NCBI GenBank assembly: GCA_022072055.1
Contig: JAJVIK010000025.1
Location: forward strand, 71,766-116,816
DNA length: 45,051 nt
From: a bacterium
GTDB lineage: Bacteria; Hinthialibacterota; Hinthialibacteria; OLB16
Direction: 5' to 3'
Position numbers and translations under genes: made by a program. Positions within the stretch are counted from its first letter, which is position 1. The number at the start of each line of letters is the position of its first letter. Positions 9,243-12,553 of the stretch are shown one piece after another. The notes under the pieces were generated by a model. The model ran no database searches and was not told the origin of the DNA. It saw only the letters and a list, made by a program, of their open reading frames with translations.

Positions 9243-9962
9243 CTACTCCCCCTTGCGAGCGACCACCGCGATGTTGAGGGCGAACCGTCGGGCCTTCCCG
9301 TCATTCTTTTCAAGAGCGGCGATGCAGCGAGTCCATACCCGATTTACCTGGAACACGATGGGAAACAGGAGCGGGACTCCCCAGGCGAGGTTCACCGCGA
9401 GGGTGCTGGGCATATGTCCGAGGAAAGAGAGCACTCCGCCTGACCAGCGAACCTCGTGCACCTCCAGTCCGGACTTCGAGCAGAGTTCCCTGAGACCATA
9501 CTCCGTGTACCGAAAGTAATCGTGCGGTTCGTTGTGGAGATAGGCGAGTTGCGGAACCGAGAGCACGGCCGCGCCGCCCGGTCGAAGGACCCTTGCGAAT
9601 TCGAAGAGCACCGCTTGCGGGTCGGGAACATGCTCCAGGACCTGCGAGCAGAAGATCGAATCAAACGAGCAGGAAGGGAAGGGCAGGCGGACCAAGTCGC
9701 CGATGAGGTCCAGCCCCTCGCGGACCCGATAGCGGTCGTAGGAGACCACGCGATCCGCTACCCGAGCGAGTCGCTCACGGTGGGTTAGACGTCCGGCGCC
9801 GGCATCCAGGGTTCTTCCACGGACATGCGTTCGGATCAGGGGGTCGAGAGTGCGGATCAAAGTCAGTCCGGCAGGGGTGAGGTCAAAATAGGCCTCGGTC
9901 CGGGCGTATTTGTCCGAGACCGCGATCCCTCCCTCTTTGACACGTCGTCCGATCCAACCCAA
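9243..9962 (-). CDS. Class I SAM-dependent methyltransferase
   Basis: 239 residues. Motif I is TLDAGAGRL, an acidic motif follows (VVSYDRY), and the methyltransferase type 11 hallmark FCSQVLEHVPDP precedes VLRPGGAAVLSVPQ. PHDYFRYTEYGLRELC is common in methyltransferases encoded near polysaccharide genes. The start is TTG at 9962: GGAAGGGAG lies about 7 bases upstream and no in-frame ATG or GTG fits better. A hydrophobic segment near residues 195-212 suggests membrane association. The substrate is unknown. It is followed without a gap by the permease gene and preceded by a small frameshifted gene. Confidence 0.85.
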   Translation of the reverse strand: MGWIGRRVKEGGIAVSDKYARTEAYFDLTPAGLTLIRTLDPLIRTHVRGRTLDAGAGRLTHRERLARVADRVVSYDRYRVREGLDLIGDLVRLPFPSCSFDSIFCSQVLEHVPDPQAVLFEFARVLRPGGAAVLSVPQLAYLHNEPHDYFRYTEYGLRELCSKSGLEVHEVRWSGGVLSFLGHMPSTLAVNLAWGVPLLFPIVFQVNRVWTRCIAALEKNDGKARRFALNIAVVARKGE

Positions 9963-10022
9963 GGCGGTTCTCCCTTCCGGGATGGTGACACGGGGGCATC
10001 GTGGGGAGGAGGGGGAGGCGAA

Positions 10023-10288
10023 TCAATCGTCCAGGGCGTGATCCACAATCCGTTGCCGCTCTTCGTCGGTGACCCGGCGATACCCGAGCCATTCAGGCAG
10101 CTGGTCTCACACCACCTGCGGTAATCCTCCATGGTGTCGAACACTCGGATGCCTGGTCCGTCGTCCAGGACCGGCTTGTAAGTATACAGGACCCCTTTGG
10201 CGATCCGCTCCAGAACCGGGCGTTTCATCGCCGCCTCGAAGCGCGCCAATTCCTCCTTTTCAGACTCATCCTCTCCCTGCTTGGCCAT
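10023..10288 (-). pseudogene. Small conserved-looking gene with an apparent -1 frameshift
   Basis: An ATG at 10288 (AAGGA upstream) opens a charged, soluble protein of unrecognised family. It reads sensibly through DTMEDYRRWCET to about 10103, then becomes Ser/Pro-rich junk that runs to 9863 inside the methyltransferase gene. Shifting frame by -1 near 10101-10105 gives a plausible, highly charged continuation (LPEWLGYRRVTDEERQR, ending HALDD) with a TGA at 10023, leaving a 60-base gap before the methyltransferase start. The restored protein would be about 88 residues. The cause could be a sequencing error, a real mutation or programmed frameshifting; no obvious slippery heptamer is present. 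Confidence 0.55.
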
Positions 10289-10328
10289 CACAGTTTTCCT
10301 TGAACTTCTCTGCGTGGTACATGGCGGT

Positions 10329-11168
10329 CTACAACACCATCCGCTCCCTGGCGGGTTCGAGTTCCCGCGCGGGTGCGTGCTCTCGGACCAGCTTGAGGAC
10401 CCGCGAAATCTCGGTCTGCATCTTCAGGTAGTATCGGGCGTCGGTCTGACGGGTCTGTGTGACCCGGTAAGGAATCCCGGTTTCCAGGGAAAACTTGAAC
10501 GCCGGCTCGTCCATCGCGTCATCTCCGACATACAGCAGCACAATCTTCCTGTCCGGGTACAGCGCGCGATAGGTCTGGTGCAACATGCGCACGGCCTTGC
10601 CGCGATCCCAGTCAATTGCGGGCAGTATCTCCAGCGTTCGACGACCCTCCTCGATCCGAATCTTCCGCTCCCGCACCAGGCTGGCGAGGAGGTTGCGCGC
10701 CTTGGGGAGAAGGGAGCTGATCTGGTTCTCCATCACCGCGCGGTAGTTCAGCGCCGCGGACAAGCCTCGGTCCTCAACCACGATCCGGTCCACACGGAGC
10801 TGAATGCGAAGCGTGTTCGCGGCTTCGTGCACCGCCGGGCGGAGCTGTTCCGCCCCGCTGTGGTGGAAGTTCAGGTCCGGTCCCTGAATCTCCAGTCCAT
10901 GATTGCAGAAGTAGTGAATTCCCGGCATGGGCAGCTGGGTCTGCATGTCCAGCAGCGAGCGCCCGGAAATGACCCCCAAACGGACCGATGGGATCTGGGA
11001 GATCTTTTCCAGGTGCTCATGGACTGTCTCCGCCATGTGAATCTCATCTCCGGGTTGGACATGGGGGACTAGGATCCCGTCATAGCCGCAGATCAGTATA
11101 ACCAAATCCGCCTGTTTGATCTGATTGCGGGTCTCGCTGGTGTAGTTGTTCGTGAGTTTGGGTGGCAT
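10329..11168 (-). CDS. otsB: Trehalose-6-phosphate phosphatase-like HAD protein, nucleophile Asp missing
   Basis: 279 residues from the ATG at 11168, which has AAGAAGGA about 8 bases upstream; upstream TTG and ATG codons have poorer spacing. Overall sequence and length match OtsB/TPP of the HAD superfamily: SGRSL (motif II), NHGLEIQG, a motif III Lys in DRGKAVRML, and YVGDDAMDEPAF (motif IV). The motif I DxDGT is CGYDGIL: the nucleophile Asp is Gly28 (GGC, codon 11085-11087), and the usual Thr of GDDxTDE is Met. Established HAD chemistry needs that Asp, so phosphatase activity is doubtful and a binding or regulatory role is possible. No trehalose-phosphate synthase is in the window. Confidence 0.8.
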   Translation of the reverse strand: MPPKLTNNYTSETRNQIKQADLVILICGYDGILVPHVQPGDEIHMAETVHEHLEKISQIPSVRLGVISGRSLLDMQTQLPMPGIHYFCNHGLEIQGPDLNFHHSGAEQLRPAVHEAANTLRIQLRVDRIVVEDRGLSAALNYRAVMENQISSLLPKARNLLASLVRERKIRIEEGRRTLEILPAIDWDRGKAVRMLHQTYRALYPDRKIVLLYVGDDAMDEPAFKFSLETGIPYRVTQTRQTDARYYLKMQTEISRVLKLVREHAPARELEPARERMVL

Positions 11169-11191: not shown

Positions 11192-11254
11192 TCAATCCCG
11201 TATAAACAAAAAACCCAAGAGCCGGGACTCTTGGGCGTCGGAGGGCCAGCCCAT
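11192..11254 (-). CDS. Possible 20-codon leader ORF spanning a terminator hairpin
   Basis: On the minus strand an ATG at 11254 is preceded by GAGGA 4 bases upstream and opens 20 codons to a TGA at 11192, ending 23 bases before the otsB-like start. The peptide would begin MGWPSDAQES and end FIRD. Its middle codons encode the hairpin described separately. No run of one regulatory amino acid is present, so this could be chance. Confidence 0.25.
   Translation of the reverse strand: MGWPSDAQESRLLGFLFIRD
11205..11235 (-). terminator. Intrinsic terminator-like hairpin in the leader of the otsB-like gene
   Basis: On the minus strand CCCAAGAG and CTCTTGGG form a perfect 8-bp stem (11214-11235) around a 6-base loop, followed directly by TTTTTTG. 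It lies about 37 bases before the otsB-like ATG, and no gene ends upstream on this strand, so it would act as a leader attenuator or end a small RNA. There is no T-run on the plus-strand side. Confidence 0.65.
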
Positions 11255-11500: not shown

Positions 11501-12553
11501 ATGAAAACCATCAGCATTGGCAACATTGAGGAACAGGTTGTGGACCGCGCCGACTGGCCGATCGAGAAGGTCCGCGAAACACTCAAAGACGAGACCATCG
11601 CGATCATCGGCTACGGGGTTCAAGGCCCGGCGCAAGCCCTCAATCTGAGGGACAACGGCATCAAGGTCATCGTGGGGCAGTCGGAGGACTTTCCGAGGGA
11701 CTGGAATCGCGCGGTTGAGGATGGGTGGGAGCCCGGAAAAACACTGTTCTCCATCTCCGAGGCGGCCAAGCGTGGAACGATTGTCCAGTACCTTCTCTCG
11801 GACGCCGGTCAGAAGGCCTGCTGGGACCAGATCAAGCCGCACATGACAGCCGGCAAGGCGCTCTACTTCTCCCACGGTTTCAGCATTGTCTTCAAGGATC
11901 AGACCGGGGTGATCCCACCGCCCGATATCGATGTCATCATGGTGGCCCCGAAAGGCTCCGGCACCACTGTTCGGAGGCACTTCCTCGAAGGACGAGGAAT
12001 CAACAGCAGCTACGCGGTTCATCAGGATGCCAGCGGGAAGGCGCTTGACCGGACTCTCGCGCTCGGTTTCGGGATCGGGTCGGGGTACCTTTTTGAAACC
12101 ACCTTCGAGAAAGAGGTGTGGAGCGACCTCACCGGCGAGCGGGGTGTCTTGATGGGCGCCATCTACGGACTCTGGCTCGCGCAGTATGATGTTCTGCGCG
12201 CGCATGGCCACTCCCCCTCGGAAGCTTTCAACGAGACGGTTGAGGAGGCCACCCAGAGCCTCTATCCCCTGATTGGCGAGAATGGCATGGACTGGATGTA
12301 CGCCAACTGCTCCGCCACCGCCCAGCGCGGCGCGCTGGATTGGTTCAGGCGTTTTTATGATAGCTCGAAGCCGGTGTTCGAGGAGCTCTATGACGCGGTG
12401 AAATCAGGCCGGGAGGCCAAACGGGTCATCGAAGCCAACAGCCGTCCGGATTATCAGGACCAGCTCAAGAAGGAGCTGACCGAAATCCACGATTCGGAGA
12501 TGTGGCGCGCCGGAGCGGTGGTGCGCTCACTCCGGCCCGAGCGCGTGCACTAA
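11501..12553 (+). CDS. ilvC: Ketol-acid reductoisomerase IlvC
   Basis: 350 residues from the ATG at 11501 with GGAGGAAGGA immediately upstream. It converts 2-acetolactate or 2-aceto-2-hydroxybutyrate to the dihydroxy acid in isoleucine/valine synthesis, using NAD(P)H and magnesium in the cytosol. Visible are the Rossmann motif GYGVQGPAQALNLRDNG, VAPKGSGTTVRRHF, metal-site region SDLTGERGVLMGAIYGL and the C-terminal knotted-domain motif EATQSLYPLIGENGMDWMYA split by conserved Glu residues. The sequence resembles the ~350-residue form of Bacteroidota and the eukaryotic branch more than the classical 330-residue class I enzyme. No ilvB, ilvN or ilvD adjoins it. The DUF4838 gene follows after 20 bases. 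Confidence 0.96.
   Translation: MKTISIGNIEEQVVDRADWPIEKVRETLKDETIAIIGYGVQGPAQALNLRDNGIKVIVGQSEDFPRDWNRAVEDGWEPGKTLFSISEAAKRGTIVQYLLSDAGQKACWDQIKPHMTAGKALYFSHGFSIVFKDQTGVIPPPDIDVIMVAPKGSGTTVRRHFLEGRGINSSYAVHQDASGKALDRTLALGFGIGSGYLFETTFEKEVWSDLTGERGVLMGAIYGLWLAQYDVLRAHGHSPSEAFNETVEEATQSLYPLIGENGMDWMYANCSATAQRGALDWFRRFYDSSKPVFEELYDAVKSGREAKRVIEANSRPDYQDQLKKELTEIHDSEMWRAGAVVRSLRPERVH

Follow-up and report, generated by a model that had tools for sequence, protein, structure and literature searches.

What does a trehalose-6-phosphate phosphatase (OtsB) without its catalytic nucleophile do, and why would a bacterium keep it? The question is raised by a gene on the reverse strand of the window analyzed here, a stretch of 45,051 nucleotides from contig JAJVIK010000025.1 (assembly GCA_022072055.1) of a bacterium of the class Hinthialibacteria. 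HAD phosphatases use the first Asp of motif I as nucleophile and the second as general acid-base (PMC8069645), and an initial annotation of the window had noted that the first of these is replaced by Gly, suggesting retention for a non-catalytic role such as the sensing of trehalose 6-phosphate (T6P). We have compared the gene with its closest relatives and with OtsBs from a wide range of genomes, and favor a reading, with a probability of roughly 0.6 and built on three members from draft assemblies, in which the protein has lost its phosphatase function and selection retains it for binding or scaffolding.

Methods

Column statistics were obtained from an alignment of 133 PF02358 rows from genomes of the same domain, comprising the window protein, its two relatives and 130 others. 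Of 146 PF02358 places counted, 3 belong to this family, 30 were taken as loci and 88 plus 11 more were used, with 14 partial or weak ones left out. The 130 other rows represent 129 loci (two genes were entered twice and L009 is split over two rows), and one row of 81 residues was omitted from the comparisons over conserved columns and between control pairs. The reference set contains 122 OtsBs; 7 of the 10 rows with replaced catalytic residues were excluded from it and three were retained. The 28 conserved columns used below were defined on the control set, and the 215 control pairs share rows, hence are not independent. Relatives were sought in 61 genomes, and close relatives accepted within the 14-genome class at E 1e-8.

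Results and Discussion

The features considered are collected in Table 1. The frame is intact, with 279 codons and a stop, and its product scores 93.8 bits against TIGR00685 (cut-off 68.05) and 76.1 bits against PF02358 (cut-off 27), the sole Pfam family above cut-off, so that the trehalose-phosphatase-like identity and normal length given initially stand. Among solved structures the best sequence match is 5gvx, which bears the name trehalose-phosphate phosphatase, and the start codon at 11168 agrees with the start of the relative from OLB16 (MPPKL). A structure prediction from the three-member alignment was too poor (mean pLDDT 53.3) for any claim here to rest on it. The protein thus resembles OtsB/T6PP (TIGR00685, PF02358; HAD-IIB) in its near full-length match, its recognizable motifs and its standalone gene, and differs in its missing nucleophile, in the replacement of the motif III Lys by Arg and in the lack of a detected trehalose-6-phosphate synthase in its genome.

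Table 1. Features of the OtsB-like locus, in window coordinates
Feature	Position	Strand	Basis or remark
OtsB-like (trehalose-6-phosphate phosphatase family) putative pseudoenzyme, 279 aa	10329..11168	-	frame and family profiles
Residue 28, GGC: Gly replacing the nucleophilic Asp of motif I	11085..11087	-	alignment column 28
Residues 68-70, SGR of motif II, intact in the window protein (OLB16 SSS; OFTM149 TGR)	10959..10967	-	alignment
Residue 189, CGC: Arg where motif III has Lys, as also in both relatives	10602..10604	-	alignment column 189
Residues 216-219, DDAM of motif IV; both Asp present in the window protein	10512..10523	-	alignment
Residues 246-263, an 18-residue stretch without variation among the three proteins; might form an interaction surface	10380..10433	-	shuffle test
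Ketol-acid reductoisomerase gene (ilvC), divergent neighbor, also beside both relatives	11501..12553	+	ORF comparison
SAM-dependent methyltransferase gene, downstream	9243..9962	-	downstream in OLB16 too (58% identity); unmatched in the OFTM149 contig
Terminator-like hairpin (10 pairs) and T run, 45 bases upstream of the start, putative	11213..11236	-	consensus match only

The three motif regions read CGYDGIL, SGRS and GDDAMDE. Motif I, DxDGT in OtsB, is GYDGI here, and the initial placement of Gly28 at the nucleophile position is borne out by the alignment, where 126 of the 130 rows that have a letter in column 28 show Asp; the same count applies to column 30, that of the general acid. Also as first described, GDDxTDE has become GDDAMDE through T219M, with its acidic residues present, and motif II, which calls for Ser or Thr, retains its Ser (S68; Ser and Thr in the relatives). 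The motif I Thr is altered as well (T32I), and the protein keeps S68, R70, D216, D217, D220, E132 and E180. We disagree with the initial annotation on motif III, whose Lys it held to be kept: the true position is column 189, with Lys in 128 of the 132 rows that have a letter and Arg in four, three of which are this family. Presumably K191 was meant, which lies in a variable column where 27 of 133 rows have Lys. Since an Arg might be tolerated at position 189, K189R by itself is no proof of inactivity.

Close relatives occur in each of the three members of this GTDB family, the window genome included, among the 61 genomes searched, and no close relative was found in the other genomes of the class (14 genomes, E 1e-8). 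A scan of genome contigs returned only the same two assemblies, both labeled MAG, under the titles Candidatus Hinthialibacteria bacterium OLB16 and Candidatus Omnitrophota bacterium OFTM149 (according to NCBI, Hinthialibacteria belongs to the phylum Candidatus Hinthialibacterota). No relative was confirmed in viral contigs scanned with the alignment and with canonical OtsB as queries, and the 27 plasmid records retrieved by a protein search were all below 60% identity. Each family genome contains one PF02358 match. The three proteins are 63-69% identical pairwise and group together at 100 support in a tree from a quick method, which did not fix their nearest outside relative.

All three proteins carry K134R, H141N, K189R and T219M, while their remaining lesions differ. 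Those of the window protein are D28G and T32I. The OLB16 protein has D30E, G69S and R70S, with motif I reading DYEGT and D28 kept, and the OFTM149 protein has T32A, D216A and D217G, with motif I reading DYDGA and motif IV GAGGMDE, both D28 and D30 being kept. On the question, posed at the outset, of whether Gly28 is fixed among related genomes, the answer is no: both relatives have Asp (GAT) there and are altered elsewhere instead. By our own mapping of positions the window protein is without its nucleophile, the OLB16 protein has Glu as general acid and the OFTM149 protein is without the first motif IV Asp. In Brugia malayi T6PP, for which Mg is described as held by Asp213, the main chain of Asp215, Asp424 and Asp428, replacement of either motif I Asp leaves no detectable activity (PMC4081830). 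On these grounds the window protein appears to be the strongest case for lost catalysis, and the OLB16 and OFTM149 proteins could retain weak activity.

Could the protein nevertheless still be an enzyme, an altered active site slowly cleaving some other phosphate ester with other residues substituting for those lost? The seven residues named above that the window protein keeps, the presence of both motif I Asp in OFTM149 and the basic character that Arg189 shares with Lys all speak for such a reading. However, the catalytic changes differ from one relative to the next, so that no single alternative mechanism suits all three, and the B. malayi result argues against activity once either motif I Asp is lost. 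We regard continued catalysis as unlikely, if the least unlikely of the alternatives.

Trehalose Context. The trehalose-6-phosphate synthase OtsA (PF00982) was not found in any of the three family genomes (84-97% complete), nor was a trehalose PTS transporter or a GH65 enzyme; TreZ gave no match over cut-off in the three, with one far below it in G001. The searches are able to detect a normal operon, since in genome G005, of the same class, a canonical otsB was found adjoining otsA, with PF00982 over cut-off. At this level of completeness a gene might be missed in one genome, and less readily in all three. Because no source of T6P was found in the three genomes among those sought (OtsA, trehalose PTS, GH65), the T6P-sensing role suggested initially is left without support. 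A sensor of T6P or trehalose would be in keeping with E132, E180 and a basic residue at 134, which are present in all three proteins, but besides the absence of the above enzymes and transporter from the search results, H141, found in 98% of the reference OtsBs, is Asn in every family member, and we consider this role quite improbable.

Degenerate TPP domains as such are not rare in bacteria, since one or more catalytic residues are replaced in ten of the 130 other rows (four at one site only, three only at the second motif IV Asp). Five of the seven such proteins examined sit with trehalose-related domains. Four of the seven are fused to a GT20 synthase and one to a trehalase-like GH15 protein, two having no other Pfam domain; in the fusions of G108 and G246 Gly is also found at the nucleophile column. 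The TPS-TPP fusions (L156, L157, L158 and L160) have TPP domains in which catalytic residues have been lost, and their genomes (G108, G246, G253 and G332) each contain a second PF02358 match. The degenerate domain at L159:2431-5001 is in frame with the trehalase-like GH15 protein, and its frame reaches the end of the sequence stretch examined. The bacterial TPS-TPP fusions thus share with the window protein a TPP domain with replaced catalytic residues, and differ in the fused GT20 synthase domain, which the window protein does not have.

A second likeness is to eukaryotic proteins. Yeast Tps3 and Tsl1 are described as trehalose-enzyme relatives without defined catalytic activity, and regulatory or structural roles have been proposed for them (PMC9635654); such roles have likewise been proposed for plant class II and other inactive TPSPs, described as catalytically inactive with incomplete motifs (PMC3634074). 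In common with non-catalytic TPPs of the Tps3/Tsl1 kind, the window protein has a TPP-family domain with incomplete motifs that appears to be kept by selection. Unlike it, the yeast and plant proteins are large and include a synthase-related region, and Tps3 and Tsl1 are in complex with a working synthase, whereas the window protein stands alone and no PF00982 match was found in its genome. A limited keyword search returned no literature report of a trehalose-6-phosphate phosphatase pseudoenzyme or pseudophosphatase. What is unusual, from the genomes compared, is a degenerate TPP that stands alone and occurs in every one of the three family genomes, none of which yielded a T6P source.

Selection and Constraint. 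All three frames are full length, and the protein is constrained, since synonymous sites are saturated in all three pairs (pS 0.77-0.84) while pN is 0.21-0.25. Over the 28 most conserved OtsB columns the family pairs differ at 6, 7 and 9 positions. The 215 control pairs (52-80% identity, 65 rows) show 0 differences in 129 cases, 1 in 54, 2 in 23, 3 in 6 and 4 in 3, and the 17 of 60-72% identity show 0 in 12, 1 in 2 and 2 in 3. Judged by these columns the family is losing residues exactly where other OtsBs do not, although both the choice of columns and the sharing of rows favor the controls. Outside the family only one pair with as many as 6 differences was seen, L091 and L136, both degenerate domains and not among the 215. 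The gene is best described as intact, constrained and probably non-catalytic, and the idea that the protein is retained without catalysis gains support from three genomes with three sets of active-site changes in a protein constrained as a whole.

The longest invariant stretch in the three proteins, residues 246-263, is reached by 33 of 20000 shuffles of the invariant positions; the others are of 10, 9, 9 and 8 residues. Identity over 246-258 exceeds the pair average by 0.31-0.36, as compared with a mean of -0.07 (sd 0.14) for 189 control pairs, whose maximum of 0.41 lies above the family values, so that the contrast is within the control range, which counts against a special role for this stretch.

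These data also bear on whether the gene is a decaying relic of an otsBA operon that has lost otsA and is becoming a pseudogene. The drift of active-site residues would be expected of such a relic, as would the missing otsA when a member of the same class has canonical otsB beside it, yet saturated synonymous sites with low pN, intact frames in three genomes and the invariant stretches all run counter to decay, making this very unlikely. Sequencing or assembly error, for which a single-base change from GAC to GGC would suffice at residue 28 in draft assemblies such as these, is scarcely credible: departures from the OtsB consensus number 7, 8 and 10 of the 28 columns in the three assemblies, four of them being identical in all, and several odd codons are two bases from those of the relatives (for example GGC vs GAT in both relatives at 28, GCG vs GAT at 216). 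The initial view that an error at 11086 is improbable is thus upheld, as judged on the assemblies, by the three differing sets of active-site changes in a constrained protein.

Neighborhood. When 14 window ORFs were compared with the contigs of the two relatives, only the OtsB-like gene and ilvC matched both, the methyltransferase gene matching OLB16 alone. In all three genomes ilvC and the OtsB-like gene are on opposite strands and diverge in transcription. The contigs of the relatives are 21 and 13 kb long, and synteny is comparable over short contigs only, since that of OLB16 ends ∼0.6 kb past ilvC. In OFTM149 a 387-aa ORF separates the two genes, which weakens the idea of a shared promoter. 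At E 1e-10 a single ketol-acid reductoisomerase (KARI) was found in each family genome, with identities of 79% and 72% within the family but of only 35-42% when compared with the KARIs that the class's other 11 genomes encode (one match per genome); the family KARI may have been replaced by transfer.

Two further observations concern the downstream side. A 142-aa frame at 9863-10291 (-), between the OtsB-like and methyltransferase genes, has no Pfam, NCBIfam or PHROGs match, and in OLB16 these two genes are too close to fit it. Another HAD-IIB hydrolase, whose DxDGT is normal, is encoded in OFTM149 ∼1.4 kb downstream of the OtsB-like gene (L020:973-1848, -).

Upstream, hairpins like that of Table 1 are found on the same strand ∼30 bases before the OLB16 start (L019:18104-18126, -) and ∼190 bases before that of OFTM149 (L020:4247-4270, -). 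Terminator-like sites number 6, 3 and 4 in the scanned regions, against shuffle means of 2.8, 2.6 and 2.1. There is no apparent upstream gene on the hairpin strand in the window or in OLB16; the OFTM149 hairpin could serve the intervening ORF, and an attenuator or a small-RNA terminator is possible. The window had no Rfam match at the gathering threshold, and a search of the genome with the leader recovered the leader alone. We do not claim a riboswitch: the leader RNA of the window folds no better than shuffled sequences (z -0.29), and that of OLB16 modestly better (z -1.74, equaled by 10 of 200 shuffles).

Proposed Explanation. Loss of phosphatase activity with retention as a binding or scaffold protein could have come about as follows. 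An ancestor in this bacterial family would have been released from catalytic constraint, as the shared K134R, H141N, K189R and T219M suggest, after which active-site residues would have drifted separately in each lineage while the C-terminal stretch was preserved together with E132, E180 and a basic side chain at 134. The most likely mode of action would be non-catalytic, the protein binding a partner through the invariant C-terminal stretch and modulating that partner, and the old pocket might hold a small phosphosugar or other anion. The adjacent KARI, or its pathway, is the best candidate partner on the grounds of linkage only, and we infer from the neighboring genes that branched-chain amino-acid synthesis is the most promising connection. 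That a trehalose-phosphatase fold stripped of catalysis has been recruited as a regulator of KARI or of branched-chain amino-acid synthesis is a tentative suggestion, to which we would give rather less than even one chance in four.

Conclusions

Non-catalytic relatives of trehalose enzymes are already known from yeast and plants. A standalone bacterial case with no detected source of T6P would show that the fold can be retained for a role outside trehalose metabolism. Annotation based on TIGR00685 would call the protein a trehalose-phosphatase and so credit these bacteria with a step that is probably absent.
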